Positions 1 through 62,319 of a stretch of DNA of 62,320 nucleotides are shown one piece after another. The stretch spans positions 1 to 62,320 of the forward strand of contig PYJA01000041.1 of NCBI GenBank assembly GCA_003635185.1. The letters run 5' to 3'. How positions within the stretch are numbered: position 1 is the stretch's first letter; every line of letters starts with the position of its first letter. This DNA is from Candidatus Poribacteria bacterium. GTDB taxonomy: Bacteria; Poribacteria; WGA-4E; WGA-3G. Under the pieces are notes generated by a model that worked only from the letters and a program-made list of their open reading frames with translations, ran no database searches and was not told the origin of the DNA. Made by a program: the position numbers and the translations under genes.

Positions 1-450
1 ACCTATGTTCGGCTCAAAGGACACTTTGTCTATGTTTCATTTCTCCTTGATGTGTTTACGCGAATAATAAGAGGGTGGCAACTGAGCCGACTTATGACAC
101 AACCTCTAACATTGAGACCCTTGCAGCAAGCATTACAAGAAAACGTGCCAGAGATACATCATAGTGATCAGGGAGTTCAGTATCTATCAGATGCCTATAT
201 TTCTACTCTCACTGAACATGGGATTGAGATTTCGTTAGCTCATAGAGGACGACCTTGGGAGAATGGATACGCGGAACGATTTATCCGAACTCTCAAAGAG
301 GAAGAAATCTACCTGAATGACTATGAGGATATAGCAGATGCTAATGCCTGCATTGGACATTTTATTGAACAAGTATATAACCAAAAACGACCTCACTCGG
401 CTTTAGGGTATTTGACACCTATTGAATTTGAGAAAGAATACTTGTCTTAA
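1..450 (+). CDS. IS3-family transposase OrfB, 3' part (5' end outside window)
   Basis: The reading frame is open from the first base, so the GTG at 52 is not the start and the N-terminus lies upstream of the window. The visible 149 residues are the C-terminal half of an rve-type DDE integrase core. They begin with TYVRL, which normally follows the first catalytic Asp. The second Asp is in HHSDQGVQY and the catalytic Glu in ENGYAERF. The C-terminal block YNQKRPHSALGYLTP is typical of IS3 OrfB. OrfB is normally made by programmed frameshifting from OrfA, which cannot be seen here. The gene looks intact to its TAA stop. Family assignment is secure; subgroup is not. Confidence 0.93.
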   Translation, partial: TYVRLKGHFVYVSFLLDVFTRIIRGWQLSRLMTQPLTLRPLQQALQENVPEIHHSDQGVQYLSDAYISTLTEHGIEISLAHRGRPWENGYAERFIRTLKEEEIYLNDYEDIADANACIGHFIEQVYNQKRPHSALGYLTPIEFEKEYLS

Positions 451-489
451 CTTTACGAAATTATGGTCTAAAAAATCGATGGCACTTCA
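1..489 (+). mobile_element. IS3-family insertion sequence, right end
   Basis: About 39 nt after the OrfB stop the sequence ends in GGCACTTCA. Its reverse complement TGAAGTGCC starts with TG, as IS3-family terminal repeats do. I infer that the right end of the IS is at about 489. It abuts, with at most one base shared, the outer end of the 25-bp inverted repeat of the next transposon. The left end is outside the window, so size and target duplication cannot be determined. Confidence 0.7.
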
Positions 490-513
490 ATAAGTAGTTT
501 TATACTTTACCTT
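489..513 (+). repeat. Left terminal inverted repeat of the tRNA-bearing transposon
   Basis: The repeat starts AATAAGTAGTTTTATACTTT and continues ACCTT. It matches the reverse complement of 4934-4958 at 25 of 25 positions. The next base inward (T514 against C) differs, as does the base outward, so the repeat is exactly 25 bp unless the IS3 element has removed outer bases. Confidence 0.92.
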
Positions 514-562
514 TGGCATTTTTTGTAAACATTTTTCAGTAAAGTTTGCAAATATATATAGT

Positions 563-627
563 GGCAGCAATTAAATGCAAATCTTTTAAACGTTTTCGTC
601 CACTCAGCTTTGCATTTAACTGCTGCT
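563..627 (-). terminator. Long hairpin downstream of the 66-aa gene
   Basis: Positions 564-581 pair with 609-626 over 18 bp. The single exception on the plus strand is an A-C mismatch, which becomes a T-G wobble on the minus strand, so the folded RNA is probably minus-strand. It lies 18 nt beyond the minus-strand stop at 645, as expected of a terminator or 3'-protecting hairpin. The 27-nt loop contains a small inner stem (ACG/CGT). Confidence 0.55.
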
Positions 628-644
628 TACGTTATACCTTGAAA

Positions 645-845
645 TTAATCGGTTTGTTCCAACAATTTATTAAGTGCTGCTCGGGCATCTTCTAACGTTT
701 CAAAATGAACCAAATCGGATTTTGTTTTGCCATCTTCTAATTCAAACGTTAAATGTATAGCACACCTATTATTAACTTCGGTTATATTTGCAAATAATAG
801 TTTATCGGTATTTATTACCCAGTTCGGTGAAATTCGTTTTAGCAC
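645..845 (-). CDS. 66-aa protein of unknown function (transposon passenger)
   Basis: The open frame reaches back to an ATG at 872, but AAGGAG lies 7 nt before a GTG at 845, so the GTG is the better start. The 66-residue product (LKRISPNWVINTDKLLFANI...) has no signal peptide or membrane segment. It looks like a small mixed alpha/beta domain with an acidic C-terminus. I do not recognise the family. The gene lies 67 nt downstream of tRNA-Gly on the same strand and may be transcribed from the same promoter (993-1021), ending at the hairpin 627-563. AT-rich codons match the rest of the transposon. Confidence 0.6.
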   Translation of the reverse strand: MLKRISPNWVINTDKLLFANITEVNNRCAIHLTFELEDGKTKSDLVHFETLEDARAALNKLLEQTD

Positions 846-887
846 TTTAACTCTCCTTATTTTTTGTTGCAATTTATTTCTAAAGTT

Positions 888-907
888 GCTATACTATATA
901 ACATATA
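888..907 (-). repeat. 20-nt motif following tRNA-Gly (copy 1)
   Basis: Read on the minus strand this is TATATGTTATATAGTATAGC, starting 4 nt beyond the last base of tRNA-Gly. An identical 20-mer follows the CAU tRNA-like gene at 4826-4845. A shorter relative, ATGTTATATACTATA, lies at 2501-2515 after the UUA tRNA-like gene. Position after each tRNA suggests a processing or termination role; this is inference. Confidence 0.75.
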
Positions 908-911
908 AACG

Positions 912-984
912 TGGAGCGAATCGGAATTGCACCGATAACTTATTGCGTGGCAGGCAATTGCTTTACTAATTAAGCTACCGCCCC
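912..984 (-). tRNA. tRNA-Gly (anticodon GCC)
   Basis: On the minus strand the cloverleaf is complete and 73 nt long. The acceptor stem GGGGCGG/TCGCTCC has two G-T pairs and the D-stem is GCTT/AAGC. The anticodon stem ATTGC/GCAAT encloses loop CTGCCAC with anticodon GCC. The variable region is AAGTT, the T-stem ATCGG/CCGAT, and A is the discriminator. CCA is not encoded. The D-loop (AATTAGTA) has only one G and the T-loop is TGCAATT instead of TTCRANY, so the usual G18-U55 contact is lost on both sides. A promoter lies directly upstream (993-1021), placing the start of transcription close to tRNA base 1. The acceptor stem is extended by a 10-bp inverted repeat (ATATAAACGT). Confidence 0.85.
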
Positions 985-992
985 ACGTTTAT

Positions 993-1021
993 ATCATATC
1001 ACGTAAACAAAGCCAGTGCAA
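993..1021 (-). promoter_or_regulatory. Promoter of tRNA-Gly (module copy 1)
   Basis: On the minus strand: -35 TTGCAC (1021-1016), 17-bp spacer, -10 TATGAT (998-993). The same TTGCAC box and GCTTTGTTTTACGTG-like spacer recur at 4451-4480 and 4711-4740. The expected start of transcription is about 986, two bases before tRNA-Gly. The -35 box lies in one arm of the adjacent hairpin. Confidence 0.7.
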
Positions 1022-1051
1022 CAGATTAATTTTGTTGCACTGGCTTTGTTT
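1005..1051. repeat. Hairpin of the hairpin-promoter module, copy 1
   Basis: Perfect 19-bp inverted repeat (1005-1023 with 1033-1051) around loop GATTAATTT. The stem contains AAAGCCAGTGCAACA. It is a diverged relative of the two nearly identical hairpins at 4423-4465 and 4683-4725, with the same outer ACAAAGC and the same GTGCA core. Confidence 0.8.
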
Positions 1052-1201
1052 GTTATGAAATATTTTAACTTTTTTGCAAAAGCTGCCTTATTAAACTCAA
1101 AAAACTGTATAACTATTAAGCAGTGTAATAAGGATTCTACCTGCCATCTTTATTATGCTGCTTTTGTTATACCTTTAATCTTTGTTTGCAGTAAAATTGT
1201 A

Positions 1202-1231
1202 TTGTATTTTGTCAATAAGGTATGCTATAAT
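1202..1231 (+). promoter_or_regulatory. Probable transposase promoter
   Basis: -35 TTGTAT (1202-1207), 18-bp spacer, consensus -10 TATAAT (1226-1231). It lies about 180 bp before the transposase start. The leader contains an AACGGAG/CTCCGTT hairpin (1247-1272) and a direct repeat TCAATGAATT near 1287 and 1303. The stretch 1052-1201 holds no convincing gene, only an imperfect inverted repeat (about 1078-1175). Confidence 0.55.
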
Positions 1232-1327
1232 TAACACTAAAGAAAAACGGAGCAGCTACAACTACTCCGTTCCTTAATTCATCTTTCAATGAATTGAATT
1301 TTTCAATGAATTTACGTAACGCTTGAA

Positions 1328-1383
1328 GTTGCATCTTTTTACGCTACATTTCTATTATATCGCAATTTGTTGAAAGATGCGAC
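1328..1383 (+). promoter_or_regulatory. Leader stem-loop before the transposase gene
   Basis: GTTGCATCTTT (1328-1338) pairs with AAAGATGCGAC (1373-1383) with one T-G wobble and a 34-nt loop. The structure ends about 13 nt before the AAAGGAG ribosome binding site. It could modulate transposase translation, a common control point in transposons; that role is inferred only. Confidence 0.4.
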
Positions 1384-1409
1384 ACTTTTTCGTTAAAGGA
1401 GTATCTGTA

Positions 1410-2273
1410 ATGAATTTACTTGAAGTTGTTGAAAAGTTTCCAGACCAGCAAGCGTGCATAACACATTTGGAAGAACTGCGTTGGAATGGTAATCCTTTAT
1501 GTCCATATTGCGACAGTGAACGTGTAAAGAAGCGTAATGAAACAAAGCATAATCGTATTGGATTATGGACTTGTCGTAATTGCGAAGCGTCTTTTAAAGC
1601 AATACAAGACACTATATTTCACGGCACACATATTGAATTAAAAAAGTGGTTTATGGCAATTGCACTAATTGTTAATGCTAAAAAAAGCATGTCAAGTTAT
1701 CAGTTAGCACGTGATTTGTCGTTAAACCAGAAAACTGCGTGGTATATAATGTCGTGTATACGAGTTGAAATGGCACGAGATAAAGTTTTGTTGCAAGGTG
1801 TTGTTGAAGCTGATGAAACATATATAGGCACAATAACGCAAGAATTAAAAGAGCAAAATAAACGCGGTAGAGGCACTGTTAAAACGCCTATTATGGGTGT
1901 TGTTCAAAGAGGCGGTAAAGTTGCTGCACAAGTTGCAACGGATTTAAAGGGTGAAACTTTATTAGAGTTTATACGCGGTTACGTTGATATTGAAAACTCG
2001 GAACTAATAACAGATGAGTATAAGGCTTACAATGTAGTAGGTAAGCACATGAAACACTCTGTAATTAATCACCAAGAGGAATATGTTAACGGTGATATAC
2101 ACACAAACACTATTGAAGGGTTTTGGGCATTGTTGAAGCGTGCGTGGAAAGGATCGCATCATCACTATAGCAGAGAGTATACGCCTTTATATGTAGCAGA
2201 AGCATGCTACAAATACAATTACCGCAACGAAAATATGTTTGATAAGTTTCTGAAACAAGCGATGCAATTTTAA
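1410..2273 (+). CDS. IS1595/ISXO2-family DDE transposase
   Basis: Start ATG 1410 is chosen because AAAGGAG lies 8 nt upstream; an in-frame ATG at 1377 has no such site. The 287-residue product has an N-terminal zinc ribbon (CPYC near residue 31, CRNC near residue 55). An ISXO2-like DDE core follows: VEADETYIG (first Asp), ITDEYKAY (second Asp), and HTNTIEGFWALLKRAWKGSHHHYS, which holds the catalytic Glu region. Length and domain order fit IS1595-family transposases. Codon use is AT-rich like the rest of the transposon and unlike the second IS1595-type copy at the end of the window. It presumably acts on the 25-bp inverted repeats. The frame is intact with no premature stop. Confidence 0.93.
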   Translation: MNLLEVVEKFPDQQACITHLEELRWNGNPLCPYCDSERVKKRNETKHNRIGLWTCRNCEASFKAIQDTIFHGTHIELKKWFMAIALIVNAKKSMSSYQLARDLSLNQKTAWYIMSCIRVEMARDKVLLQGVVEADETYIGTITQELKEQNKRGRGTVKTPIMGVVQRGGKVAAQVATDLKGETLLEFIRGYVDIENSELITDEYKAYNVVGKHMKHSVINHQEEYVNGDIHTNTIEGFWALLKRAWKGSHHHYSREYTPLYVAEACYKYNYRNENMFDKFLKQAMQF

Positions 2274-2303
2274 TTGGTAATTGTATTTATTACAAAGTAT
2301 AAT
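2274..2303 (+). promoter_or_regulatory. Promoter of the UUA tRNA-like gene
   Basis: -35 TTGGTA (2274-2279), 18-bp spacer, -10 TATAAT (2298-2303). The predicted start of transcription, about 2310, falls exactly at the beginning of the 14-bp inverted repeat that encloses the tRNA-like gene. The -35 box overlaps the transposase stop codon region. Confidence 0.5.
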
Positions 2304-2310
2304 TAAAATG

Positions 2311-2429
2311 AAACCGCTTACTGCATACTTAAAGGGACAGGATTAAAGTAGTTGGATGCTACAACCGGTCTTTAAAACCAGGTCTTATGGGTTCGATCCC
2401 CACTGTCTCCATAAAGCAGTAAGCGGTTT
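2311..2429 (+). repeat. 14-bp inverted repeat enclosing the UUA tRNA-like gene
   Basis: AAACCGCTTACTGC (2311-2324) pairs perfectly with GCAGTAAGCGGTTT (2416-2429). The transcript would form a long stem with the tRNA at its tip. Comparable enclosing repeats surround tRNA-Gly (10 bp) and the CAU tRNA-like gene (7-8 bp), each with a different sequence. Confidence 0.85.
2334..2410 (+). tRNA. tRNA-like gene, anticodon loop CTTTAAA (anticodon UUA, would read UAA)
   Basis: The acceptor stem GGGACAG/CTGTCTC is complete. The T-loop TTCGATC is canonical, on a stem of four pairs (TGGG/CCCA). The anticodon arm CCGGT-CTTTAAA-ACCAG has one C-A mismatch and puts UUA at positions 34-36, with U33 and A37 in place. 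The arm closely resembles a tRNA-Trp arm with CCA changed to TTA. A D-like hairpin GTAG/CTAC with loop TTGGATG is present, but seven nt instead of two separate it from the acceptor stem. That linker and the probable C at the discriminator position make this a non-standard tRNA. It may be an ochre suppressor, a decayed tRNA, or a structured RNA with another role. No other reading of the loop pairs better. Confidence 0.55.
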
Positions 2430-2463
2430 CGCTTTTCCTGAACGCTTTATATATTTTAATTAT

Positions 2464-2498
2464 ACTTGACGTATGCGTATATGTCAAGTCTTTTTTTT
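2464..2498 (+). terminator. Rho-independent terminator after the UUA tRNA-like gene
   Basis: ACTTGACGTAT pairs with ATATGTCAAGT (11 bp, one G-T) around the tetraloop GCGT and is followed by C and eight T residues. It ends the tRNA transcript and insulates it from the promoter at 2526. Confidence 0.88.
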
Positions 2499-2525
2499 GA
2501 ATGTTATATACTATATAAAAAACAC

Positions 2526-2554
2526 TTGACTTTAAATACGAAATATGATATTAT
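2526..2554 (+). promoter_or_regulatory. Strong sigma-70-type promoter for the 106-aa gene and lipoprotein gene
   Basis: -35 TTGACT (2526-2531), 17-bp spacer, -10 TATTAT (2549-2554). The expected start of transcription, about 2561, gives a 5' leader of nearly 290 nt before the ATG at 2848. This leader contains several stem-loops. Confidence 0.8.
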
Positions 2555-2577
2555 ATACAAGATGTGTTAATTAAAAC

Positions 2578-2845
2578 CGGCAGGAGCTGGTAGTGTCAAT
2601 ACCAACTCCTGCCTTTTGTAAAGTTTAACATTGGAATAGCAGTGCTATCCCTTAGTCAATTTAAGTATACCATATTTCGCTAATATTTTGAAATTAAAAA
2701 TTTACCTGTTTAAGTTATACCTTTAGCACATACAAAAATGACTAACAGAATAGATTTTAACATTTAAAATTAAGCTAAATATACCTATCACTTGCATTGT
2801 TATGGGGTAGCTGCTATTCCTACTTACCCAAGTAAGGAGTAGCAG
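2578..2845 (+). promoter_or_regulatory. Structured 5' leader with a stem that hides the ribosome binding site
   Basis: First, a stem-loop GGCAGGAG...CTCCTGCC (2578 to about 2613) followed by TTTT. Second, GGAATAGCAG-TGCTATCCC (2633-2651), which can fold on itself. Third, CTGCTATTCCTACTT (2811-2825) pairing with AAGTAAGGAGTAGCAG (2830-2845), which buries the AAGGAG site of the 2848 gene. The second segment is also complementary to 2804-2820 (GGGGTAGC, CTGCTATTCC). That pairing would exclude the third stem and free the ribosome binding site. The arrangement resembles a switchable leader; the signal is unknown. Confidence 0.55.
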
Positions 2846-2847
2846 TA

Positions 2848-3168
2848 ATGAGTCGTTCATCAAACAATGCAGACAACCTACCTTTTCGTTCACCACAATA
2901 TAACCTATATTTTGAACATTTGGTTGAATACTTAACTGGTTTGAAAAACGTTGCCTTAAATAGTTTCAAACGCAGAGATTTTGTTGATAGCTATAGGTAT
3001 TCAATAAAAGGAACACGTATAAACCCTTTTTTTAAGGCTTTACGTAAAAAGCATTGGATTGAAAAAGTTAATCCTGATAAGTTTGACGGCTTACACCGTG
3101 TAGTTAAAGGTAGTTATTTACATAATGAACTACAACTACACGGTATAACACCCACAAAGGAGGATTAA
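2848..3168 (+). CDS. 106-aa protein of unknown function
   Basis: ATG 2848 has AAGGAG 8 nt upstream, inside the leader stem. The product is basic and soluble-looking, with no signal peptide or membrane segment. The N-terminus is rich in Ser/Asn and the middle contains SFKRRDFVDSYRYSIKG and ALRKKHW, which could contact nucleic acid. I do not recognise a family. It is followed by TAA, one CTA codon and then the ATG of the lipoprotein gene in the same reading frame. The two are therefore separate genes in an operon, or, if the UAA is read through, one 497-residue protein. Low GC and unusual content mark it as transposon cargo. Confidence 0.75.
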   Translation: MSRSSNNADNLPFRSPQYNLYFEHLVEYLTGLKNVALNSFKRRDFVDSYRYSIKGTRINPFFKALRKKHWIEKVNPDKFDGLHRVVKGSYLHNELQLHGITPTKED

Positions 3169-3171
3169 CTA

Positions 3172-4341
3172 ATGTCTTTACAACAATGTAAAAGCGAGCG
3201 TTGGTTTAGTTTAATGCTTGTTTTATTTTTCTTTGTGTTTGCAAGCGGTTGTTTTGACAATGTGGATATTCTTACACCTTTAATTGACGAAGGTAAAATT
3301 ACATTAGCTAAGCGTCCTGCTAACGATATGGTAAAAATACCTGCGGGTTCGTTTTCTATGGGCGACGTAAAAGTTGTAGATCCTATAGTAATTCACTACA
3401 CCGATAAATATGGTGTAAAACGTATTCGTTTTATTGAAGAAGTTATACCAGAACATTGGCAAAACGAATACACAGATGAGTTTTGGATTGATAAAAACGA
3501 AGTTACTGTCGGTGAATATATTGCTTTTGCCAATGCAACAGGTCGTGATGTTGATGAGATAATAACCTCTTTGGCAACTTATGATATAGATTTTGATTAT
3601 GAAAAATGTGCAGTAGAAGATACTTATTGCTACCCAATTGTATGTATTACATTAGAAGAAGCAAAAGCGTATGCAAAATGGGTTGGTAAAAGATTGCCTA
3701 CTTCTGCCGAGTGGGAAAAAGCTGCACGCGGTGGTATACACCAAGCAGCTTATATGTATGAAACAGGCAAGTTTCCGGGGCGTATAGAAACCAATCCAAT
3801 AGATGGTTTACAAACAATACATGCCTTTGGTAATTTTCAACTATATGGATTAACTCCAGATAGGTTTCCAATATCATACGATAATTTTTCTCATAAAAGA
3901 CCACGTATAAAACCACGTCATAATTCGGTTTTTTACCATAGAAAAAACGAATATGGTATACACGATATGGGTGGTAATGTGTCTGAATGGGTGATTGAAA
4001 GCGATCAGTTAGTTACGTTGAAACCTTTAAGTGATTATTTAAAACCCGGCGAAACTATACGTTATATTCACAGAGAAGGCAAAGCGGTAATTGTTCGTGG
4101 TGCTGCTTATTATCGTAAATGGGGTTGGGAAAAAATACCACGCGACGCTAATCCAAAAAAAGTTGTTTTTCACAATCAATTAACTACAGGTAGAAAACAT
4201 AAATTAGAAATACACTCACAACGCACACGCGAAGGCACTAATAATAATACAAACGATGATTATTGGTTTCCAAACGTAGGGTTTCGTTGTGTTTCAGATG
4301 TTCCACCTGAAGAAATTGTTATCTTTGATGTTAATAAATAA
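3172..4341 (+). CDS. FGE-sulfatase (SUMF1/EgtB-type) domain lipoprotein
   Basis: ATG 3172 follows AAGGAGG by 8 nt. The 389-residue product starts with a lipoprotein signal ending FASGC (Cys27), so it is probably anchored outside the cytoplasm. Residues about 50-375 form a formylglycine-generating-enzyme-like fold: MVKIPAGSFSMG, DEFWIDKNEVTVGEY, GKRLPTSAEWEKAARGG, NEYGIHDMGGNVSEWV and VGFRCV. Members of this fold oxidise sulfatase cysteines, act in ergothioneine or pyoverdine synthesis, or only bind ligands. I do not see the paired catalytic cysteines of a true FGE, so a binding or structural role is as likely. It lies in frame with and three bases after the 106-aa gene. It is a notable cargo because the host carries sulfatases nearby. 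Confidence 0.88.
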   Translation: MSLQQCKSERWFSLMLVLFFFVFASGCFDNVDILTPLIDEGKITLAKRPANDMVKIPAGSFSMGDVKVVDPIVIHYTDKYGVKRIRFIEEVIPEHWQNEYTDEFWIDKNEVTVGEYIAFANATGRDVDEIITSLATYDIDFDYEKCAVEDTYCYPIVCITLEEAKAYAKWVGKRLPTSAEWEKAARGGIHQAAYMYETGKFPGRIETNPIDGLQTIHAFGNFQLYGLTPDRFPISYDNFSHKRPRIKPRHNSVFYHRKNEYGIHDMGGNVSEWVIESDQLVTLKPLSDYLKPGETIRYIHREGKAVIVRGAAYYRKWGWEKIPRDANPKKVVFHNQLTTGRKHKLEIHSQRTREGTNNNTNDDYWFPNVGFRCVSDVPPEEIVIFDVNK

Positions 4342-4422
4342 ACATATATTTTGTGGTTTTATACACACTACAATTAAAACTGTCCACCTGGAGCAAATAA
4401 CAACGATTAATTAGTGTAACAA

Positions 4423-4465
4423 ACAAAGCACGTGCAGCAGTTTTAAACTGTTGCACGTGCTTTGT
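4423..4465. repeat. Hairpin of the hairpin-promoter module, copy 2
   Basis: Inverted repeat 4423-4443 with 4445-4465 (ACAAAGCACGTGCAGCAG... and its complement), one G-T pair. About 50 bp from here are almost identical to 4683-4732. It lies about 80 bp after the lipoprotein gene and may also serve as its terminator. Confidence 0.88.
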
Positions 4466-4480
4466 TTTACGTGGTATACT
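4451..4480 (+). promoter_or_regulatory. Promoter in module copy 2 (37-aa gene)
   Basis: -35 TTGCAC (4451-4456) lies in the right arm of the hairpin. An 18-bp spacer follows, then -10 TATACT (4475-4480). The predicted transcript, from about 4487, contains a GCGTG/CACGC stem-loop (4501-4516) and then AAAGGAGGT before the 37-aa gene. Confidence 0.65.
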
Positions 4481-4548
4481 ACATGCAATCATAAAAAAGA
4501 GCGTGCAACAACACGCCCTGTCAACCTAATTAAAGGAGGTAATTTCAA

Positions 4549-4662
4549 ATGGAAACTCTTGCCAAACGTATAAAGCAAGATAAAAAACCTAATAAAAAGG
4601 TTAACGTAGGTTTTGTAAAAACAAAACCTTACCAAAAAGTAAAACGTGCAAAAAGAAAATGA
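4549..4662 (+). CDS. 37-aa Lys/Arg-rich peptide
   Basis: ATG 4549 is preceded by a perfect AAAGGAGGT eight nt upstream, and the frame ends with TGA at 4660. The peptide (METLAKRIKQDKKPNKKV...AKRK) has about 15 Lys/Arg and three acidic residues among 37, with no hydrophobic segment. Such a composition fits a nucleic-acid- or ribosome-binding peptide. I know no family for it. It has its own module promoter, and a second copy of the same module starts 21 nt after its stop. The strong ribosome binding site and dedicated promoter are the reasons to call it a gene despite its size. Confidence 0.65.
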   Translation: METLAKRIKQDKKPNKKVNVGFVKTKPYQKVKRAKRK

Positions 4663-4682
4663 GTTGATTTTTATTGTAATAC

Positions 4683-4725
4683 ACAAAGCACGTGCAGCAG
4701 TTTTAAACTGTTGCACGTGCTTTGT
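4683..4725. repeat. Hairpin of the hairpin-promoter module, copy 3
   Basis: Same inverted repeat as 4423-4465, without a difference in the stem. Only one base differs within the following spacer (ACATGG against ACGTGG). Confidence 0.88.
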
Positions 4726-4740
4726 TTTACATGGTAAAAT
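4711..4740 (+). promoter_or_regulatory. Promoter in module copy 3 (CAU tRNA-like gene)
   Basis: -35 TTGCAC (4711-4716), 18-bp spacer, -10 TAAAAT (4735-4740). The expected transcription start, about 4747, is two nt before the first base of the tRNA-like gene, the same geometry as for tRNA-Gly. Confidence 0.65.
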
Positions 4741-4748
4741 AAAGCAGT

Positions 4749-4816
4749 GGGGATAGCAGGTTCGCAAGGCAAGCCTCATAAGCAACGTCTTTTGGGTTCA
4801 AGTCCCAATATCTCCA
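4749..4816 (+). tRNA. tRNA-like gene with CAU in a 7-nt loop (possible tRNA-Met)
   Basis: The acceptor stem GGGGATA/TATCTCC is complete with one G-T, and the T-arm TTGGG-TTCAAGT-CCCAA is perfect. The discriminator is A4816. A loop CTCATAA with U33-CAU-A37 geometry is present but closed by only two G-C pairs. Outside it AAGGC can pair with GTCTT around an internal loop. Only 36 nt separate acceptor and T-arm, about five fewer than normal, so the D-arm is shortened or absent. A flanking AAGCAGTG/CACTGCTT repeat (4742-4749, 4817-4824) extends the acceptor helix. It is probably a tRNA-derived molecule; whether it is charged and decodes AUG is uncertain. Confidence 0.5.
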
Positions 4817-4825
4817 CACTGCTTC

Positions 4826-4845
4826 TATATGTTATATAGTATAGC
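4826..4845 (+). repeat. 20-nt motif following the CAU tRNA-like gene (copy 2)
   Basis: TATATGTTATATAGTATAGC, identical to the sequence after tRNA-Gly read on its own strand (907-888). From here to the right terminal repeat (4846-4933) I see AT-rich sequence without a gene. Confidence 0.75.
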
Positions 4846-4933
4846 ATATCTAAAAATACTTGTCAACAAAAAGTATCATAAAACACATAAAAACAAGGTA
4901 TAACAATAGCAAGTAAAACTATACACAGTATAG

Positions 4934-4958
4934 AAGGTAAAGTATAAAACTACTTATT
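4934..4958 (-). repeat. Right terminal inverted repeat of the tRNA-bearing transposon
   Basis: Exact reverse complement of 489-513. The TAA stop of the leftward WD40 gene (4956-4954) lies within the outer bases of this repeat. Confidence 0.92.
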
Positions 4959-6783
4959 TCGATAAGTTTTGTATCCCATCTCCATGTCTTTCGAACGTTT
5001 TTATCGGATGCCCCAAGGCAACATCCCAAAGCGACACCGTTTCATCTTCGTAGATAGTAATTGCGAATGGTTTGCCCTGTAAATATAAAACTACGGTGAC
5101 GTACGCATTCGGTGCAAAAAGTGTATTGATGTTTTCTCCTGTAATTGTATCCCACAATTGCACCAGGTTGTTAGAAAAGGTTGTTGCAATTGTCTTACCA
5201 TCTGGAGAAAACATAATGTGCCATGCTTGCCCCATGAGCGTATTAATATTCTTTCCCGTTGTTGTGTCCCACAATTGCACTGGCTTGCCCCTACTATTAG
5301 TTGCAAGTATCTGTCCATCTGGGGAGAACATGTAACGTCTAACATGACTAAACTTCCCTTGAATTGTAATTATGGTTTTTCCTGTGTGTGCATCCCACAA
5401 CCACACCCAATTGTGCTTACTACGAGCTGCAATTGTTTTACCATCTGGAGAAAACACAGGCGTATCAATACGAATAGGTTCATTGATATGATTCGTATGT
5501 CTAACGAGTATTTTTTTGCTTTCTCCTGTATGTGTGTCCCACAGCCGCGCTGTCCCGTCTGTACTCCCAGTTGCAATTGTGTGTCCATCCGGAGAAAACG
5601 TAAAACCAGAAATAAAACTTTCATGTCCTTTAAGTGTTCTTAGGTGCTTTCCAGTGGTAGCATTCCACAGACTTATTTCGTTTGATTCAGTAATTGCGAT
5701 TATTTTACCATCGGGCGAGTACTTTATAGTCTGCCCAACATTTATATATATATACCCTTTGAGTGTTTTTATATTTTCTCCAGTTTGCACATTCCACCAT
5801 CGAATCGTACCATCCCAGCTGGCAGTTGCGATAGTTTTTCCATCTGGAGAATACGCAATAGATTTGACTTCATGTGTATTCTCAATAAAGGTTTTCAGAT
5901 GTTTTCCAGTGGTAGCGTTCCATAGTCCAAACCTTTCACCTTCGCTAATAGCGATAATTTTTCCATCTGGAGAATAAGCGACACAATTAACGTAATACAG
6001 CGATGAGATTCTTTTTACAGGTTCCCCAGTAATCAGATTCAACATGTGTACTGCATATATAGTATCCTTTATAACTAAGTGTTCATTGTTATTTGGATTG
6101 CTTGTTACCAGGAGCGTCCTACCATCTGGAGAATACGCAATTGGGGTATGATATCCAGCAATTGTATTGATGAGTTGTCCTTTGTTTGCATCCCAAAATC
6201 GCACCGTTCCATTCCCACTGACACTTATGATTGTATCACCATTAGGAGAATATTTTACTGAAGAAACATTATCTGTATGCCCTTTGAATGTTTTTATATT
6301 TTCCCCTGTGTGTGCATTCCAAAGTCGTATTGTATCGTCTACACCTCCAGTTGCGAGTGTATTACCATCAGGAGAATAAGCGACAGACAGTACCCAGGAC
6401 TTATGTCCAGTGAGCGTTTTTTGCAGTTTTCCTGTACGCGCATCCCATAATCTCACCGTCCCATCTCGACTGGTTGTTGCGATTGTTTTGTTATCCGGCG
6501 AATACGCAGCAGAATAGACCCTATCTGTATGCCCTCCTGTTATGGGGTCAAGTTCTTCTCCTGTCTGCGCATCGTAAATCCAAACGCCGATGGTAGTCGC
6601 AACAGCAAACCGCGTGCCGTCTGGAGAATATGTTATCTCGCGTATGCCACCTCTGCCGAAACGAGCAATAGCACCTTCGGGTAAACCGATTTGCATAGAA
6701 GGTTCGTATTGCGCAAAAACGGTTGATAAACACAATGTTACAAAGAAAAATAGAGCGAATGTCAGAAACAACTTCTTCATCAT
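4954..6783 (-). CDS. Secreted WD40-repeat protein, 3' end replaced by transposon
   Basis: The 609-residue product starts with a signal peptide (hydrophobic FLTFALFFFVTLCLSTVFA, cleavage likely before Q25). The rest is WD40 units, about a dozen, each with YSPDG or FSPDG and (L/R)WD(A/T) with a TGK or TGE turn. They should form one or two beta-propellers outside the cytoplasm, probably for protein binding. ATG 6783 (or 6780) follows AGGAGG. The reading frame ends in SK and a TAA inside the terminal inverted repeat of the neighbouring transposon. The native C-terminus, probably another WD40 blade, has been lost. The partner is unknown. Confidence 0.9.
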   Translation of the reverse strand: MMKKLFLTFALFFFVTLCLSTVFAQYEPSMQIGLPEGAIARFGRGGIREITYSPDGTRFAVATTIGVWIYDAQTGEELDPITGGHTDRVYSAAYSPDNKTIATTSRDGTVRLWDARTGKLQKTLTGHKSWVLSVAYSPDGNTLATGGVDDTIRLWNAHTGENIKTFKGHTDNVSSVKYSPNGDTIISVSGNGTVRFWDANKGQLINTIAGYHTPIAYSPDGRTLLVTSNPNNNEHLVIKDTIYAVHMLNLITGEPVKRISSLYYVNCVAYSPDGKIIAISEGERFGLWNATTGKHLKTFIENTHEVKSIAYSPDGKTIATASWDGTIRWWNVQTGENIKTLKGYIYINVGQTIKYSPDGKIIAITESNEISLWNATTGKHLRTLKGHESFISGFTFSPDGHTIATGSTDGTARLWDTHTGESKKILVRHTNHINEPIRIDTPVFSPDGKTIAARSKHNWVWLWDAHTGKTIITIQGKFSHVRRYMFSPDGQILATNSRGKPVQLWDTTTGKNINTLMGQAWHIMFSPDGKTIATTFSNNLVQLWDTITGENINTLFAPNAYVTVVLYLQGKPFAITIYEDETVSLWDVALGHPIKTFERHGDGIQNLSK

Positions 6784-24066: not shown

Positions 24067-25284
24067 ATGAAACATCTACATTCCAGACAATCTTCAATTA
24101 CAATGTTTATCGGTATCCTTGCGCTTACCTTCACGATTTCTGGGAATGCCACTGCACAGAAAACCTTGTCAAGCCTTTCTGGTAAAGTAATAGATGAAAA
24201 AGGGAAACCGGTTGCCGGTATTAAACTTGCTATAAAACCGGTAAAAATTAACAGAGGATATGAAGAAGGACCGCTCGCGCCTATTGCCTCTTGGCCACGT
24301 GCTGTAACTGACAAAGAAGGACATTTCTCCATAACGAACATCAATCCAGTTTCATCAAGGGTAGTGATGTTTCCTGAACACGGTTCCGACTATGAAATAA
24401 TGTCCCTTGAACTCGGAAACATCACTGTCTATTCAACGGCATTTCGTCCGAACTTTCCTGTTTGGTTTGGTAAACCTACTATTGCTATTGAACCCGGTGA
24501 ACATCTTGAAAACGTGGTTGTCAACGTGCAGAAGCCACGGATGCGAATTAGTGGACGCGTAGTTTTACCTGATGGCACGCCCCTTGCCAATAAGGAGGTT
24601 TATCTGACAGTCCGTCATAGACATCGAAATACCTTCCTCTTTTTCTTCAGCAGTGGTGGCGGTGGTGGGTCCTCAGGAAGATCTGTTAAAACTGATTCCG
24701 AAGGATACTTTGTAACATATTCTCCTGACGATGAGGAAGAATATATGGTGTCGGTAAAGTATGAAGGGATAACCGCAAAGACAAGATGGTTCCGTATGAA
24801 AAAGGGACAACGTAAAGATAATCTCAAGTTGACACTCAGAGGCTTTGAAAAACACAAATTAAATAGAGAAAAAGCACGGCAAGCCGTGTGGACGGTGAAT
24901 CCTGAAAATCAGCATGCTTATAGAAGAATTGAGTGTGATAGTTGGGAAGATGCCAAAGCAAAAGCCCAAGCTGAAAACGCCTATCTTGTGGCGATTAACG
25001 ACGAAGCGGAGCAGAAGTGGTTAGAGTCATTATATTCAGAAAGCGTGTTTTTTTGGATAGGGCTGCAAGTGCCAAAAAAAGGGAAAGCATGGCGATGGAA
25101 CAGTGGTGAACCCTTTACTTATGCGAATTGGGGCCCCTCTGGCAAACCTGATAACATATCCACAAGCGAAGGCACAGTTCCAATCGCATTGATTTTTTCT
25201 ACAAAAAAATGGATGGCAATAGATTCTAAGAATCCACTTTCATCAATGGTTAAAAAAGCGATTATCGAAAAGAATAATTTTTAA
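24067..25284 (+). CDS. Secreted protein with carboxypeptidase-regulatory-like and C-type-lectin-like domains
   Basis: The 405-residue product has a signal peptide (about residues 1-31, ending ATAQ). A carboxypeptidase-regulatory-like beta-sandwich (SLSGKVIDEKGKPVAGIKL) and a second one (ISGRVVLPDGTPLANKEVYL) follow. The C-terminal domain from about residue 277 is C-type-lectin-like: ENQHAYRRIECDSWEDAKAKA, WIGL and EPFTYANWG. A Gly/Ser-rich loop (GGGGGSSG) lies between. It probably binds glycans or proteins at the cell surface. AAGGAG is upstream. A paralogue follows at 25599. Confidence 0.85.
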   Translation: MKHLHSRQSSITMFIGILALTFTISGNATAQKTLSSLSGKVIDEKGKPVAGIKLAIKPVKINRGYEEGPLAPIASWPRAVTDKEGHFSITNINPVSSRVVMFPEHGSDYEIMSLELGNITVYSTAFRPNFPVWFGKPTIAIEPGEHLENVVVNVQKPRMRISGRVVLPDGTPLANKEVYLTVRHRHRNTFLFFFSSGGGGGSSGRSVKTDSEGYFVTYSPDDEEEYMVSVKYEGITAKTRWFRMKKGQRKDNLKLTLRGFEKHKLNREKARQAVWTVNPENQHAYRRIECDSWEDAKAKAQAENAYLVAINDEAEQKWLESLYSESVFFWIGLQVPKKGKAWRWNSGEPFTYANWGPSGKPDNISTSEGTVPIALIFSTKKWMAIDSKNPLSSMVKKAIIEKNNF

Positions 25285-36336: not shown

Positions 36337-37536
36337 ATGAAGACTCACAGAATATTGATCCTGTTTTTAGGAATTGTAGTTGCTGGGGTTCTTTTGGCGT
36401 TTTCAACGTGGCACCAGTGGAACGCTAATCAAGGAACGATTTTGGAACGCATGAGACCGATTCCTCCGATTGCGGAGTTTAGCCATGGCACTTGGATAAG
36501 AGATATTGCCTTTTCTCCTAAGCATCCTGACCTTGTTGCAAGTGTTGGTGAGCATAGCATCATAAAGGTATGGAATAGAAACAACACAGATTCACCAGAA
36601 CTTACGTTAACGAATCATCCCACTAATGAGAGTGGCACTTCTGGAATTAGTTATATCACTTTTACTCAGACAGGCGAATGGCTTGTCAGTAAAGATTTTT
36701 GGATGGTTGCAATATGGGATGCATCTTCAGGAGAAAGAATAAATACATTAGAAACTCCCTCAAGCACTGGAGTTGTTTCACCTATGAATGATTATCTCGC
36801 AGCTGGAACGAGAGATGTGAAACTGTGGGATATCAGCAACCCTAACAAGATTTCAGAGTTATTTATCTTACCAGCAAAAATGGGTGAACAGTCCATATCA
36901 CACGAAGAAGTGAATATAAAAAGTTCTAATCATAATAGTTGGGTCAAACATCACAACGCAACAGTGAATCAGTCTTTTAAAACTATTGACTTTTCACATG
37001 ATGGAAAATGGATTGCAGCGGGTGGAGAGATATATGACAAGTCCCTTGAAAAATGGAGTAGTAAGTTAAAAATTTGGGATCTGCAAAACCAACAACTGTT
37101 CAGAATTATTGAAAGAGATGATCCAAAAAATCTGGAACCCAAAAGGAAAGGTAAGAAAGTTCCATCATTCACATTGCCGCCGTCTAACGATATTCGATCA
37201 ATCAAGTTTTCACCAGATAACCGTTTTTTTGGACTTGCGGCTGACAACGGGTTAACTATATGGACTTTGCCTGAATGGAAAATCTACCATGAAGTGCAAG
37301 ATCAACGCATAAGTGATATAGCGTTTTCACCAGATGGCACGATGTTTGCGATCACTGATATTAAAGGGATAACCCTCTGGTCTGTAGAAACCCTCACACC
37401 TATTGTCCTGCTTCAGAAAGTAGGTCTTATCGGCAGTAGCGTGATTGAGTTTTCTCCTGACGGTAGCATACTTGCTGGTGGTGGTTTCGGTGGTGTTCTT
37501 CAGCTCTGGGATTTGAGGAAACTAAATGAAAAATAA
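36337..37536 (+). CDS. Membrane-anchored WD40 protein, array member 1
   Basis: The 399-residue product has one N-terminal membrane segment (ILILFLGIVVAGVLLAFSTW) and about seven WD40 units outside the membrane (DIAFSPKHPDLVASVGEHS, IEFSPDGSILAGGGFGGVLQ). It is a single propeller without a C-terminal extension. The last 11 bases overlap the start of the next gene (ATGAAAAATAA). It is the first of five related genes, probably co-transcribed. Function is probably scaffold-like. Confidence 0.88.
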   Translation: MKTHRILILFLGIVVAGVLLAFSTWHQWNANQGTILERMRPIPPIAEFSHGTWIRDIAFSPKHPDLVASVGEHSIIKVWNRNNTDSPELTLTNHPTNESGTSGISYITFTQTGEWLVSKDFWMVAIWDASSGERINTLETPSSTGVVSPMNDYLAAGTRDVKLWDISNPNKISELFILPAKMGEQSISHEEVNIKSSNHNSWVKHHNATVNQSFKTIDFSHDGKWIAAGGEIYDKSLEKWSSKLKIWDLQNQQLFRIIERDDPKNLEPKRKGKKVPSFTLPPSNDIRSIKFSPDNRFFGLAADNGLTIWTLPEWKIYHEVQDQRISDIAFSPDGTMFAITDIKGITLWSVETLTPIVLLQKVGLIGSSVIEFSPDGSILAGGGFGGVLQLWDLRKLNEK

Positions 37537-38701
37537 AAAGATGTATCTATTGTTAATATTTGTGATAGTTGCTGCGTGGACATTAGTGTTTTTATCTTTG
37601 CATCACTGGTACACTAATTCAATATTGATTCCAGCACGAGCAAAAGCACGCAGTCCGATTGCTGAGTTTAACCAAGGTGCTTTGATCCAGGCTATTGCAT
37701 TTTCGCCGACGAATTCAGACCTTATTGCAGTTGCGGAATGGGGGCACGAAGTAAAGATTTGGAACGTAAACAATACAGATACACCAGAAGTAATACTGCT
37801 TGGTCATACTGACAAAGATGTCTTTCCCGCTGTTGATTGCCTAGCGTTTTCACCGATAGGGAAATGGCTTGCAAGGAAAACATTTAAAACGCTTGATTTT
37901 TGGGATATGCCTTCCGGGACGGTATTAAATCCAATTTCTTGTGAGATGCGTTCATTCTCGGCAGCAATTTCACCAGTCAACCCCATTCTTGCTACGGGTC
38001 TGAATGACGTGAAACTGTGGGATATCAGTAATCTAAATGAGATAAAAGGAACGTTTGTATTACCAACAAAAATAGGGGAACAGGCATTGTCGCACGAAGA
38101 TATAATTTGGACTAAAGATCACTACACTGATCGTGCAATTAAACACCACAATGAAACGATAAACCAGCATTATCAGTTTATTGATTTCTCACATGATGGG
38201 AAGTGGATTGCCGCGGGCGGACAAATGAATGACGAAAACCGCAGAATAGGATTTGACAGGATAAAAATTTGGGATCTACATAGCAAACAACTATTTAAGA
38301 TTATTGAGGGCGATCTACCGGACGACTTTAAACCTGGCTACTATTATGCAGACATTAATACTATCAAATTTTCACCGGACAACCGTTTTTTCGTTGTTGT
38401 AGGCAAAAAAAGATTGATTATTTGGTCACTGCCAGAATGGAAAATTCATCGTGAAGTAGACGAACCAGGCATCGTTGATATAGCCTTCTCGCCCGATGGT
38501 AAGATGTTCGCCACTGCAAGTTATAGAAGAATTAAAATCTGGTTAGAAGAAGGTCAAACTCCTATTGACTTACAGAAGGATAAAGACTTTTTAGTCGGTG
38601 CTAAAAATATTACTTTTTCTCAAGATGGCAGCATGCTTGCGGGGGGTGGCTTTGACGGTGTTCTTCGGCTCTGGGATGTGAGGAAACTAAATGAACACTA
38701 A
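37526..38701 (+). CDS. Membrane-anchored WD40 protein, array member 2
   Basis: The 391-residue product is closely related to member 1 throughout: shared ANARSPIAEF-type linker, DVKLWDISN, IKFSPDNRFF and a final GGGFDGVLRLWDVRKLNE. It has an N-terminal membrane segment (LLLIFVIVAAWTLVFLSL). The start overlaps member 1 by 11 nt and the end overlaps member 3 by 11 nt. It arose by tandem duplication. Confidence 0.88.
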   Translation: MKNKKMYLLLIFVIVAAWTLVFLSLHHWYTNSILIPARAKARSPIAEFNQGALIQAIAFSPTNSDLIAVAEWGHEVKIWNVNNTDTPEVILLGHTDKDVFPAVDCLAFSPIGKWLARKTFKTLDFWDMPSGTVLNPISCEMRSFSAAISPVNPILATGLNDVKLWDISNLNEIKGTFVLPTKIGEQALSHEDIIWTKDHYTDRAIKHHNETINQHYQFIDFSHDGKWIAAGGQMNDENRRIGFDRIKIWDLHSKQLFKIIEGDLPDDFKPGYYYADINTIKFSPDNRFFVVVGKKRLIIWSLPEWKIHREVDEPGIVDIAFSPDGKMFATASYRRIKIWLEEGQTPIDLQKDKDFLVGAKNITFSQDGSMLAGGGFDGVLRLWDVRKLNEH

Positions 38702-61376: not shown

Positions 61377-62319
61377 AGTTGACAGAAACAGATTTCCGAT
61401 TGATGAAGAACTCACAGATAGCAATATAGCCAGAGAGAAACTTCTTATGAACACCCCGAAAACGGCGAAGGAAGTTCCGAACCGTCGTCCAGACACCTTC
61501 AATGCCATTCGTGTGAACCTCGCGAATACCATCAGCATCGTCATCTCGTGCCCACTCACCCGCTTGATGCCTGACCACAGCGTGTGGACGATCAAGACCG
61601 TTATACCCACGCCACCCATCTGTATAAACGACAGTATCTTGGTGCGTGAACTGATGCACATGAGTTGTTAGCGTCTCTTTATCCGTGTGATGAACCACAC
61701 GCAATCTAACCTGACCACACTCGCGCCCGAGAGTGCCTACCACCGGAGGCCGGTCGTTGGCATAGGTGCCGTGCCCTCTCCGTTTGTTGCCGCGCCGACG
61801 GGGCGGATCGTCTGGGTCTCAATGCCGATCCCCTTTCTCGCCAGCGTTTTGGAACATCTCATCGGTTTCAACGCACTTATCCGGTAAGACTGAATGTGGC
61901 TGCATCGTTTCCGCATTCGCCTGAAGCACGCGGCGCATTGACATCACTGTTTGACGATCTACACCGATTTCACGAGCAATTTTCGCACTCGGAACACCTT
62001 GGCAAACGCCACGCAACAACAACACCACCTGGGGAGGTGTAAACTGCTTCTGCTGGAAAACCGTACCACTATAAAGATTATAGGTGCCATCACAAGAAAG
62101 ACACCGATAGATTTGCAAATGGCTATTTTGGGTTTTGCCAAAAAGACGTGCCTCCTCCACGCCTGCACCGCAATGTGGACAATGTAATCCTTCGGGGTGG
62201 AAATGTTTCAGCAACCAAGCAGTCGCTTGTTCTTCATCTATGAGTTCTATTATTGGGAAATCCATACCTTAAAGTATAAACGATTTTAAAGAACTTTGCA
62301 TTAAAATTATTCATGAGCC
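61325..62319 (-). mobile_element. IS1595-family insertion sequence
   Basis: Imperfect inverted ends: GGCTCATG (61325-61332) followed by AATGCA, and at the other end the reverse complement at 62298-62319 (TGCATT and CATGAGCC). The length of about 995 bp fits IS1595-family elements. It has entered the 3' end of the M61-like gene. A target duplication cannot be checked because the window ends one base further on. Confidence 0.72.
61351..62265 (-). pseudogene. IS1595-family transposase interrupted by one in-frame TGA
   Basis: ATG 62265 opens a 305-codon frame with an N-terminal zinc ribbon (CPHCGAG, CLSCDG), a helix-turn-helix (AKIAREIGVDRQTVMSM) and an ISXO2-like core: VETDEMFQNAGEKG, TVVYTDGWRGYN and NGIEGVWTTVRNFLRRFRGV. 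A TGA at 61821-61819 interrupts it after KGDRH; the same frame continues DPDDPPRRRGNKRRGHGTY, as in intact members. One C-to-T change (CGA to TGA) explains this, so the copy is dead unless suppressed. Codon use is unlike that of the first transposase at 1410, so they are different lineages. Confidence 0.88.

Follow-up and report, generated by a model that had tools for sequence, protein, structure and literature searches.

Transposons of the IS1595 (ISXO2) family can carry passenger genes. Transfer RNA (tRNA) genes are usually regarded as landing sites of mobile DNA or as phage baggage, and not as cargo of simple DDE transposons. Staphylococci possess a non-proteinogenic tRNA-Gly, and a further group of unusual tRNAs, the allo-tRNAs, was reportedly described by Mukai et al. 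in 2017. According to a review (PMC7609411), allo-tRNAs combine diverse anticodons with one amino-acid identity and some have G3:U70; those with G3:U70 insert mainly alanine and serine at the amber codon in E. coli. Irregular members possess an extra loop between the acceptor and the D stem, and a link to transposable elements was suspected (PMC7609411). The element described here lies at positions 489-4958 of a 62,320-nucleotide stretch of DNA from a Candidatus Poribacteria bacterium (contig PYJA01000041.1; this whole stretch is called the window). It belongs to a transposon family whose tRNA-type cargo is well supported. The new point is this RNA cargo, which combines alanine-type acceptors with mostly non-alanine anticodons and is found on related elements in several relatives; no tRNA-carrying IS1595 element turned up in the literature searched, the coverage of which was partial.

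The element encodes an intact transposase (1410-2273, plus strand), and its assignment to the ISXO2 type was borne out by two Pfam domains above their cut-offs (1410-2270; DDE_Tnp_IS1595, E 3.5e-34, and a zinc ribbon, E 2.4e-7). Transposase domains and terminal inverted repeats are the same as in the IS1595 family and 8-bp duplications occur within the family studied here; the tRNA-type RNA cargo is the difference. Relatives of the transposase are present in 64 of 145 genomes, the own genome included, and the best other one is 64% identical. Comparison of 53 loci revealed a common end of the type CGSAATWAGTMGTTTTGG. Exact 8-bp flank duplications were found in 22 of 36 family end-pairs with lengths of 409 to 6,514 bp, whereas only 4% of flanks paired at random are identical at seven or more of the eight positions. 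The 36 pairs include the window, the locus G006:C227 (G, C and L numbers denote genomes, contigs and loci) and two small tRNA elements; for loci with more than one right end, one was picked by hand. Mobility of the family is well supported. G006:C227 carries a complete 2,265-bp element (L266:3774-6038) with both family ends, a transposase remnant and an odd tRNA, as the tRNA-type genes of this kind are called here; it is flanked by the exact 8-bp duplication TTATTATA, and its left flank looks repetitive. The smallest element, of 0.4 kb, lacks a transposase (L227), and the largest is an island in G014 that measures at least 17 kb and whose right end lies beyond the contig. A scan of viral contigs with the transposase gave no confirmed match.

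An earlier sequence-only reading of the window had described a perfect 25-bp inverted repeat bounding an AT-rich segment of 4.5 kb. Both statements hold: the repeat is identical at 25 of 25 positions (489-513 and 4934-4958), and the GC content is 0.31-0.38 within the element compared with mostly 0.39-0.55 across 7 kb on the right side. The family consensus places the ends beyond this repeat, at about 486 and about 4961; the left terminal repeat (489-513, plus strand) matches the family end at 17 of 18 positions, and the right one (minus strand) extends from 4934 to 4961. That reading had also taken the segment to move as one unit and had proposed a search with its 25-bp ends. At up to three mismatches, the search yielded only the window's own two sites in the own genome (reversed control: 0), and the tRNA-carrying IS1595-type transposon is supported mainly by its relatives, such as G006:C227, with their family ends, 8-bp duplications and tRNA cargo. 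For the window copy, movement as one unit is what we infer, since it is a single copy with a clipped left end and no readable duplication.

In the 84 genomes of the phylum, 24 odd tRNAs were found in seven, the weak ones counted (G013:C315 and two genes of the window element, w2 and w3): nine in G014, four each in the own genome (G000) and G006, three in G013, two in G016 and one each in G012 and G027. Eight of 14 odd-tRNA loci (the window, G013:C185, G013:C58, G013:C315, G006:C152, G006:C185, G006:C227 and G016:C50) have a family end no more than 1.7 kb away that matches at 17 or 18 of 18 positions, compared with none of 94 loci with ordinary tRNAs; with the threshold lowered to 16 of 18, the counts are nine of 14 and one of 94. 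The window and G014 had both been found via the transposase; without them, the association holds for seven of 12 loci, which were found by RNA models alone. The end at G016:C20 (16/18, at 1 kb) is possibly due to chance. The odd tRNA of this locus (L229 6213-6285) is located directly behind the end of an open reading frame (ORF) whose sequence suggests a restriction specificity subunit.

Three RNA models underlie this survey. R1, built from the window gene w1 and two G014 tRNAs and run over 145 genomes, ranked the odd tRNAs of G013, G006, G027 and G016 above all other listed matches save the training ones. R2 and R3, the latter including the flanking arms, were run over the 84 phylum genomes and added or confirmed copies in G012, G006, G013 and G016. 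Training involved w1 in R1 and R2 and w2 in R3, and G013:C58, G013:C315, G016:C50, G006:C8 and G006:C227 in none. All 18 R3 matches of at least 58 bits in these genomes are odd tRNAs; the next match has 56.0 bits, and one lower match (53.5 bits) is an odd G014 copy. Under 58 bits, 23 loci and two stretches checked with ARAGORN are ordinary tRNAs. Copies of the type of w1 (44.9 bits), w3 (26.2 bits) or an odd tRNA gene on own-genome contig C124 (33 bits) may be missed because R3 fails to separate them from ordinary tRNAs. ARAGORN relaxed to 80% called tRNAs almost everywhere and was discarded; at 90%, about fifteen isolated calls lie outside the reported set. Over 386 genomes at 1e-10 or below, R3 matched the seven phylum genomes and five others (G156:C65:60871-60982, G297:C33:49615-49726, G109:C97:4846-4946, G208:C31:25442-25550 and G223:C1:525080-525194; 56.6-64.6 bits). 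These five may represent additional odd tRNAs or ordinary ones whose flanks pair, and since they overlap ordinary tRNAs in score, the type is not claimed to be restricted to the phylum.

The closest relative of the transposase (G014:C50) sits in an AT-rich island, which holds the nine odd tRNAs of G014, of which ARAGORN calls six at default settings, and which also encodes a methyltransferase-like and a DnaJ-like protein. A family end (16/18) is located at 24245, where the GC content drops from about 0.4 to 0.3. The same tRNA-rich island contains an array of about seven 30-nt repeats that resemble one another and look CRISPR-like (37217-37639; L042 9718-10140). In the own genome, the odd tRNA of C124 (G000:C124:2139-2212) has the anticodon GCC and an alanine-type acceptor; its AT-rich island (L177 2040-2750) contains a tRNA-half-like stretch and a 100-codon ORF, with an end-like sequence (15/18) at the edge.

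The three tRNA-type genes of the window element, w1, w2 and w3, all start with GGG and finish with CUCC-A. The sequence-only reading had recognized one tRNA-Gly and two tRNA-like genes, but it missed the alanine-type acceptor of all three and the nesting of the middle one, w2, in a conserved hairpin. ARAGORN and Rfam (64.5 bits) agree on the tRNA-Gly(GCC), w1 (911-984, minus strand), which folds as a cloverleaf and occupies 984-912 of tRNA unit 1 (858-1055, minus strand; fold z -4.1) between a palindromic hairpin (1005-1051) and a tail. This unit and tRNA unit 2 (4677-4875, plus strand), in which a palindromic hairpin (4683-4727) is followed by the degenerate tRNA-like w3 (4749-4816) and a tail, are inverted paralogs (69%). 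Both tRNA-like genes are present and both score below every Rfam cut-off: w3 reaches 18.1 bits with the transfer-messenger RNA (tmRNA) model (E 3.2e-4, cut-off 47) and 17 bits with the tRNA model (E 2), and w2 (2334-2411) reaches 23.7 bits with the tRNA-Sec model (E 0.33, cut-off 47). w2 forms the core of a cassette at 2309-2431 (plus strand), whose arms (2311-2324 and 2416-2429) are in register with those of five other loci (fold z -5.6). It has a bulged acceptor, a seven-base stretch ahead of the D stem and the loop CUUUAAA, and it scores 85.4 bits in R3, a model which w2 itself had trained. The possibility that w1 is a spare glycine tRNA was rejected, as the host glycine genes have a different acceptor.

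The acceptor of the odd tRNAs is of the tRNA-Ala type: A73 is present in all 24 and G3 opposite U70 in 23, the exception being a9 with A3-U70; in w2, the stem concerned contains the bulge. A scripted check of 47 distinct tRNA genes of the own genome found G3/U70 solely in w1, in the C124 gene and in two alanine genes; in a third alanine gene, missed by the register of the script, it is present by eye. The anticodon loops vary. In the helix register, 12 different triplets occur among the 24 odd tRNAs (UGA seven times, UAG four times, GCC, UCU and UGU twice each, and seven singles, one of which, CGC, is an alanine triplet). Non-alanine triplets account for 23 of 24 in this register and for 21 of 24 in a register shifted by one base.

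The folds show changes on both sides of base pairs. In an alignment of eight tRNAs (A6), 89.9% of cells of the cloverleaf are paired compared with 75.4% after shuffling, and 10 of 21 pairs, including all five of the anticodon stem, show changes on both sides. In an alignment of five loci and w2 (A7), the arms add 15 pairs, which are 92% paired and of which nine changed on both sides; in five cassettes, the predicted fold places the tRNA inside the leader/trailer hairpin (z -4.1 to -8.3). Many odd tRNAs lie within such a covarying hairpin. Among the first 12 cassettes, leader/trailer pairing clearly beats shuffles in seven, and its mean is -12.5 kcal/mol versus -6.1 kcal/mol in 46 host tRNAs. 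A comparison of w1 with the C124 gene shows two-sided changes at pairs 4-69, 5-68 and 6-67, with G3-U70 kept. At an orthologous site (G013:C185 and G006:C152), the tRNA is conserved above its surroundings, with 74 of 74 identical positions compared with 26/30 in the leader, 28/30 in the trailer and 209/284 in the remainder of the small element.

A -10-like hexamer is located 31-36 bases upstream of the core in 13 of 24 cassettes, and a run of at least four T within 45 bases downstream in 11. The promoter-like sequence before w2 (TTGGTA-18-TATAAT; 2274-2303, plus strand) has its -10 element at this type of position. The sequence-only reading had credited the cassettes with their own promoters and terminators, and only the second half gained from the counts: in the window element, terminator-like sites are more frequent than in shuffles (6 vs 2.5, standard deviation 1.8), whereas promoter-like sites as a class are not (22 vs 18.1, standard deviation 4.7). 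Promoter-like sites behind w1 (867-895, plus strand) and w3 (4866-4838, minus strand) would read antisense into the tRNAs.

The function favoured here, at somewhat below an even chance, is that the family carries alanine-charged tRNA mimics which act as non-cognate alanine donors in translation, like allo-tRNAs. The element would be moved by its own transposase via the CGSAATWAGTMGTTTTGG-type ends, creating an 8-bp target duplication, and each cassette would be transcribed from its own promoter. In many cassettes, the leader/trailer hairpin around the core, together with the T-run where present, would also terminate transcription. Host enzymes would trim the core, and the host alanyl-tRNA synthetase (AlaRS) would charge it with alanine through G3-U70 and A73, so that the RNAs could donate alanine at non-alanine codons or, in the case of w2, at UAA. 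This proposal rests on the acceptor identity and on what the review reports for allo-tRNAs (PMC7609411). Diverse anticodons on one identity are a shared trait (12 triplets and G3/U70 in 23 among 24), and w2 shares the extra loop between acceptor and D stem with the irregular members. The 12-bp acceptor branch of allo-tRNAs, arranged as 8/4 or 9/3, is not seen in the odd tRNAs as a group: the 8-65 pair is impossible in nine of 24 (w1 and w3 among them) and, in most of the remaining 15, possible without being required, and a 7/5 branch is possible in most, with w2 closest to 8/4, with a bulge. Hairpin nesting, an own promoter and the tie to defined transposon ends are further differences, and the Poribacteria lineage is absent from the host lineages given in the review (PMC7609411). 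For the question left by the review (PMC7609411), whether irregular allo-tRNAs belong to transposable elements, there are now specific loci, ends and promoters and an acceptor signature that can be tested.

Several observations weigh against this proposal. Position 37 in the helix register is C in 18 of 24 odd tRNAs and a purine in 44 of 45 host tRNAs; U33 is found in 22 of 24 and a purine 37 in six of 24, compared with 44 of 45 each in the host, and the odd tRNAs overall depart from the ordinary decoding pattern. Loops were assigned manually, in two cases contrary to the script, whose count of C37 was 17. With the register shifted by one base, 18 of 24 have C36 and 23 of 24 a purine 37, and most would then read GNN codons. 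Taken alone, w1, w2 and w3 have U33 and a purine 37. In addition, w3 forms no anticodon arm, the D arm is abnormal in several copies, the G027 copy has a mismatch at 2-71 and the T stem of G013:C315 is broken. The number of pair types in A7 is not above shuffles (182 of 500), leader/trailer pairing of w3, a1, a2, a4 and a8 does not exceed that of shuffled sequences at the 5% level, and in one host tRNA the pairing reaches -20.1 kcal/mol. Five loci (G014, C124, G012:C225, G027:C93 and G006:C8) have ends matching at 15 or fewer of 18 positions within 1.7 kb.

Plain decoding is disfavoured because of the C37 in 18 of 24, and a second explanation is therefore nearly as likely, if doubtful when taken by itself: the RNAs could be folded, non-decoding alanine-type mimics, probably alanylated, which act on tRNA-cutting toxins, AlaRS, processing enzymes or ribosome rescue in the manner of a decoy or sponge, or which supply alanine off the ribosome. 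C37, the truncated D arms and the missing anticodon arm of w3 would all suit such molecules, as would the apparent restriction specificity subunit at G016:C20. The same applies to tmRNA, the best, sub-cut-off Rfam match of w3 and of the cassettes in L225, L234 and L236; among Rfam models, the odd RNAs matched only tRNA, apart from sub-cut-off matches to tmRNA and unrelated models. The alanine-type acceptor is common to tmRNA and the odd tRNAs; the tag-coding region has no counterpart here, as the matches span only 68-77 nt, and ARAGORN found no tmRNA in the window. Covarying anticodon stems and the A37 of w1, w2, w3 and the C124 gene speak against decoys, and a PADLOC scan revealed no tRNA-directed toxin or defence gene in the window element. 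w1 resembles the staphylococcal non-proteinogenic tRNA-Gly in its GUGC T loop (most tRNAs have GUUC) and its glycine anticodon; its acceptor is alanine-type, unlike that of the host glycine genes.

Mobile tRNAs that share one amino-acid identity but have many anticodon loops would offer a natural origin for ambiguous decoding, or else for protection from tRNA-cutting toxins. It is tentatively proposed, as a possibility short of likely, that the selectable cargo of the family is RNA, namely alanine-charged mimics, nested in hairpins and free to vary in the anticodon loop, that are spread by IS1595-type ends in anything from 0.4-kb elements lacking a transposase to islands of at least 17 kb and that alter the meaning of codons or render tRNA-directed weapons harmless in their hosts. 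Captured tRNA-Ala genes that decay as functionless relics are an unlikely source of the pattern: w2 and w3 are degenerate, the G027 and G013:C315 copies have the defects mentioned and some acceptors resemble host tRNA-Ala, but the cloverleaf and arms covary, G3-U70 was kept while neighbouring pairs changed, and the tRNA at the orthologous site is identical where the remaining element has diverged. Still less probable is a cis-acting role of the hairpin-nested units as the element's terminators or insulators, with the tRNA fold merely giving a processing site, since the strong arm hairpins, the T-runs and the excess of terminator-like sites would fit but G3/U70 with A73 in 23 of 24 and the varied anticodon loops would be left unexplained.

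The cargo is modular, because relatives of two of its proteins lie away from family ends and four odd-tRNA loci have no convincing end nearby. The FGE-like lipoprotein named by the sequence-only reading (3172-4341, plus strand) was supported by a Pfam FGE-sulfatase match (E 1.1e-37), the lipoprotein label being read off the sequence. It has a 55% ortholog in G009 beside an rRNA gene, with no family end of at least 15/18 within the 19 kb examined. Descent of this gene as part of the unit was considered and rejected: at E 1e-30 or below, it occurs in only two of 78 genomes, the own included, and the other copy is chromosomal. For the 106-codon ORF (2848-3168, plus strand), a 53% homolog exists in G001, where no family end lies closer than 4 kb. 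The sequence-only reading had named internal genes in a context without the repeats as an argument against the unit, and this was found in part, for these two proteins and some odd-tRNA loci. The G001 relative has hairpins in common with the window element, among them a strong one (2579-2613, minus strand), plus a lipoprotein gene of a different kind. A GTTATACCTT-type motif recurs at 621-643, 1156-1178, 2704-2726 and 4895-4911 and, inverted, at the right end, and might mark module borders. Neither the 106-codon ORF nor a 75-codon ORF (648-872, minus strand) has a Pfam match over the cut-off or a PHROG or PADLOC match, and a lysine-rich 37-codon ORF read from the sequence (4549-4662, plus strand) has no such Pfam and no PHROG match. 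A phage origin was rejected, as the small window proteins lack PHROG matches; such matches exist for some proteins of G014 and C124 but are weak or unnamed.

On the left, the element abuts the end of another insertion sequence (1-489, plus strand), which we take to be IS3-like; its integrase ORF (1-450) matches Pfam rve_3 (E 5e-20) and rve (E 8.5e-15). Own-genome contigs C22 and C39 carry positions 1-489 at 100%, both matches ending at 489, as do partial matches on C104 and C133; a match on C33 (88%) ends at 493. This insertion sequence, within which the contig begins, has overwritten the outermost bases of the left repeat. Because the left end was clipped in this way, only one of eight flanking bases agrees between the outer sides of the two ends, and the target duplication is unreadable there; by analogy with the family, the putative right copy would be ATAAGTTT (4962-4969, plus strand). 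On the right side, the element probably inserted into a WD40-repeat gene (4954-6783, minus strand), the stop codon of which lies inside the right repeat. At the opposite end of the contig, 61426-62253 (minus strand) encodes a distant relative of the transposase (25%) with one internal TGA, and near-equal matches to it are present on C141, C68 and C100.

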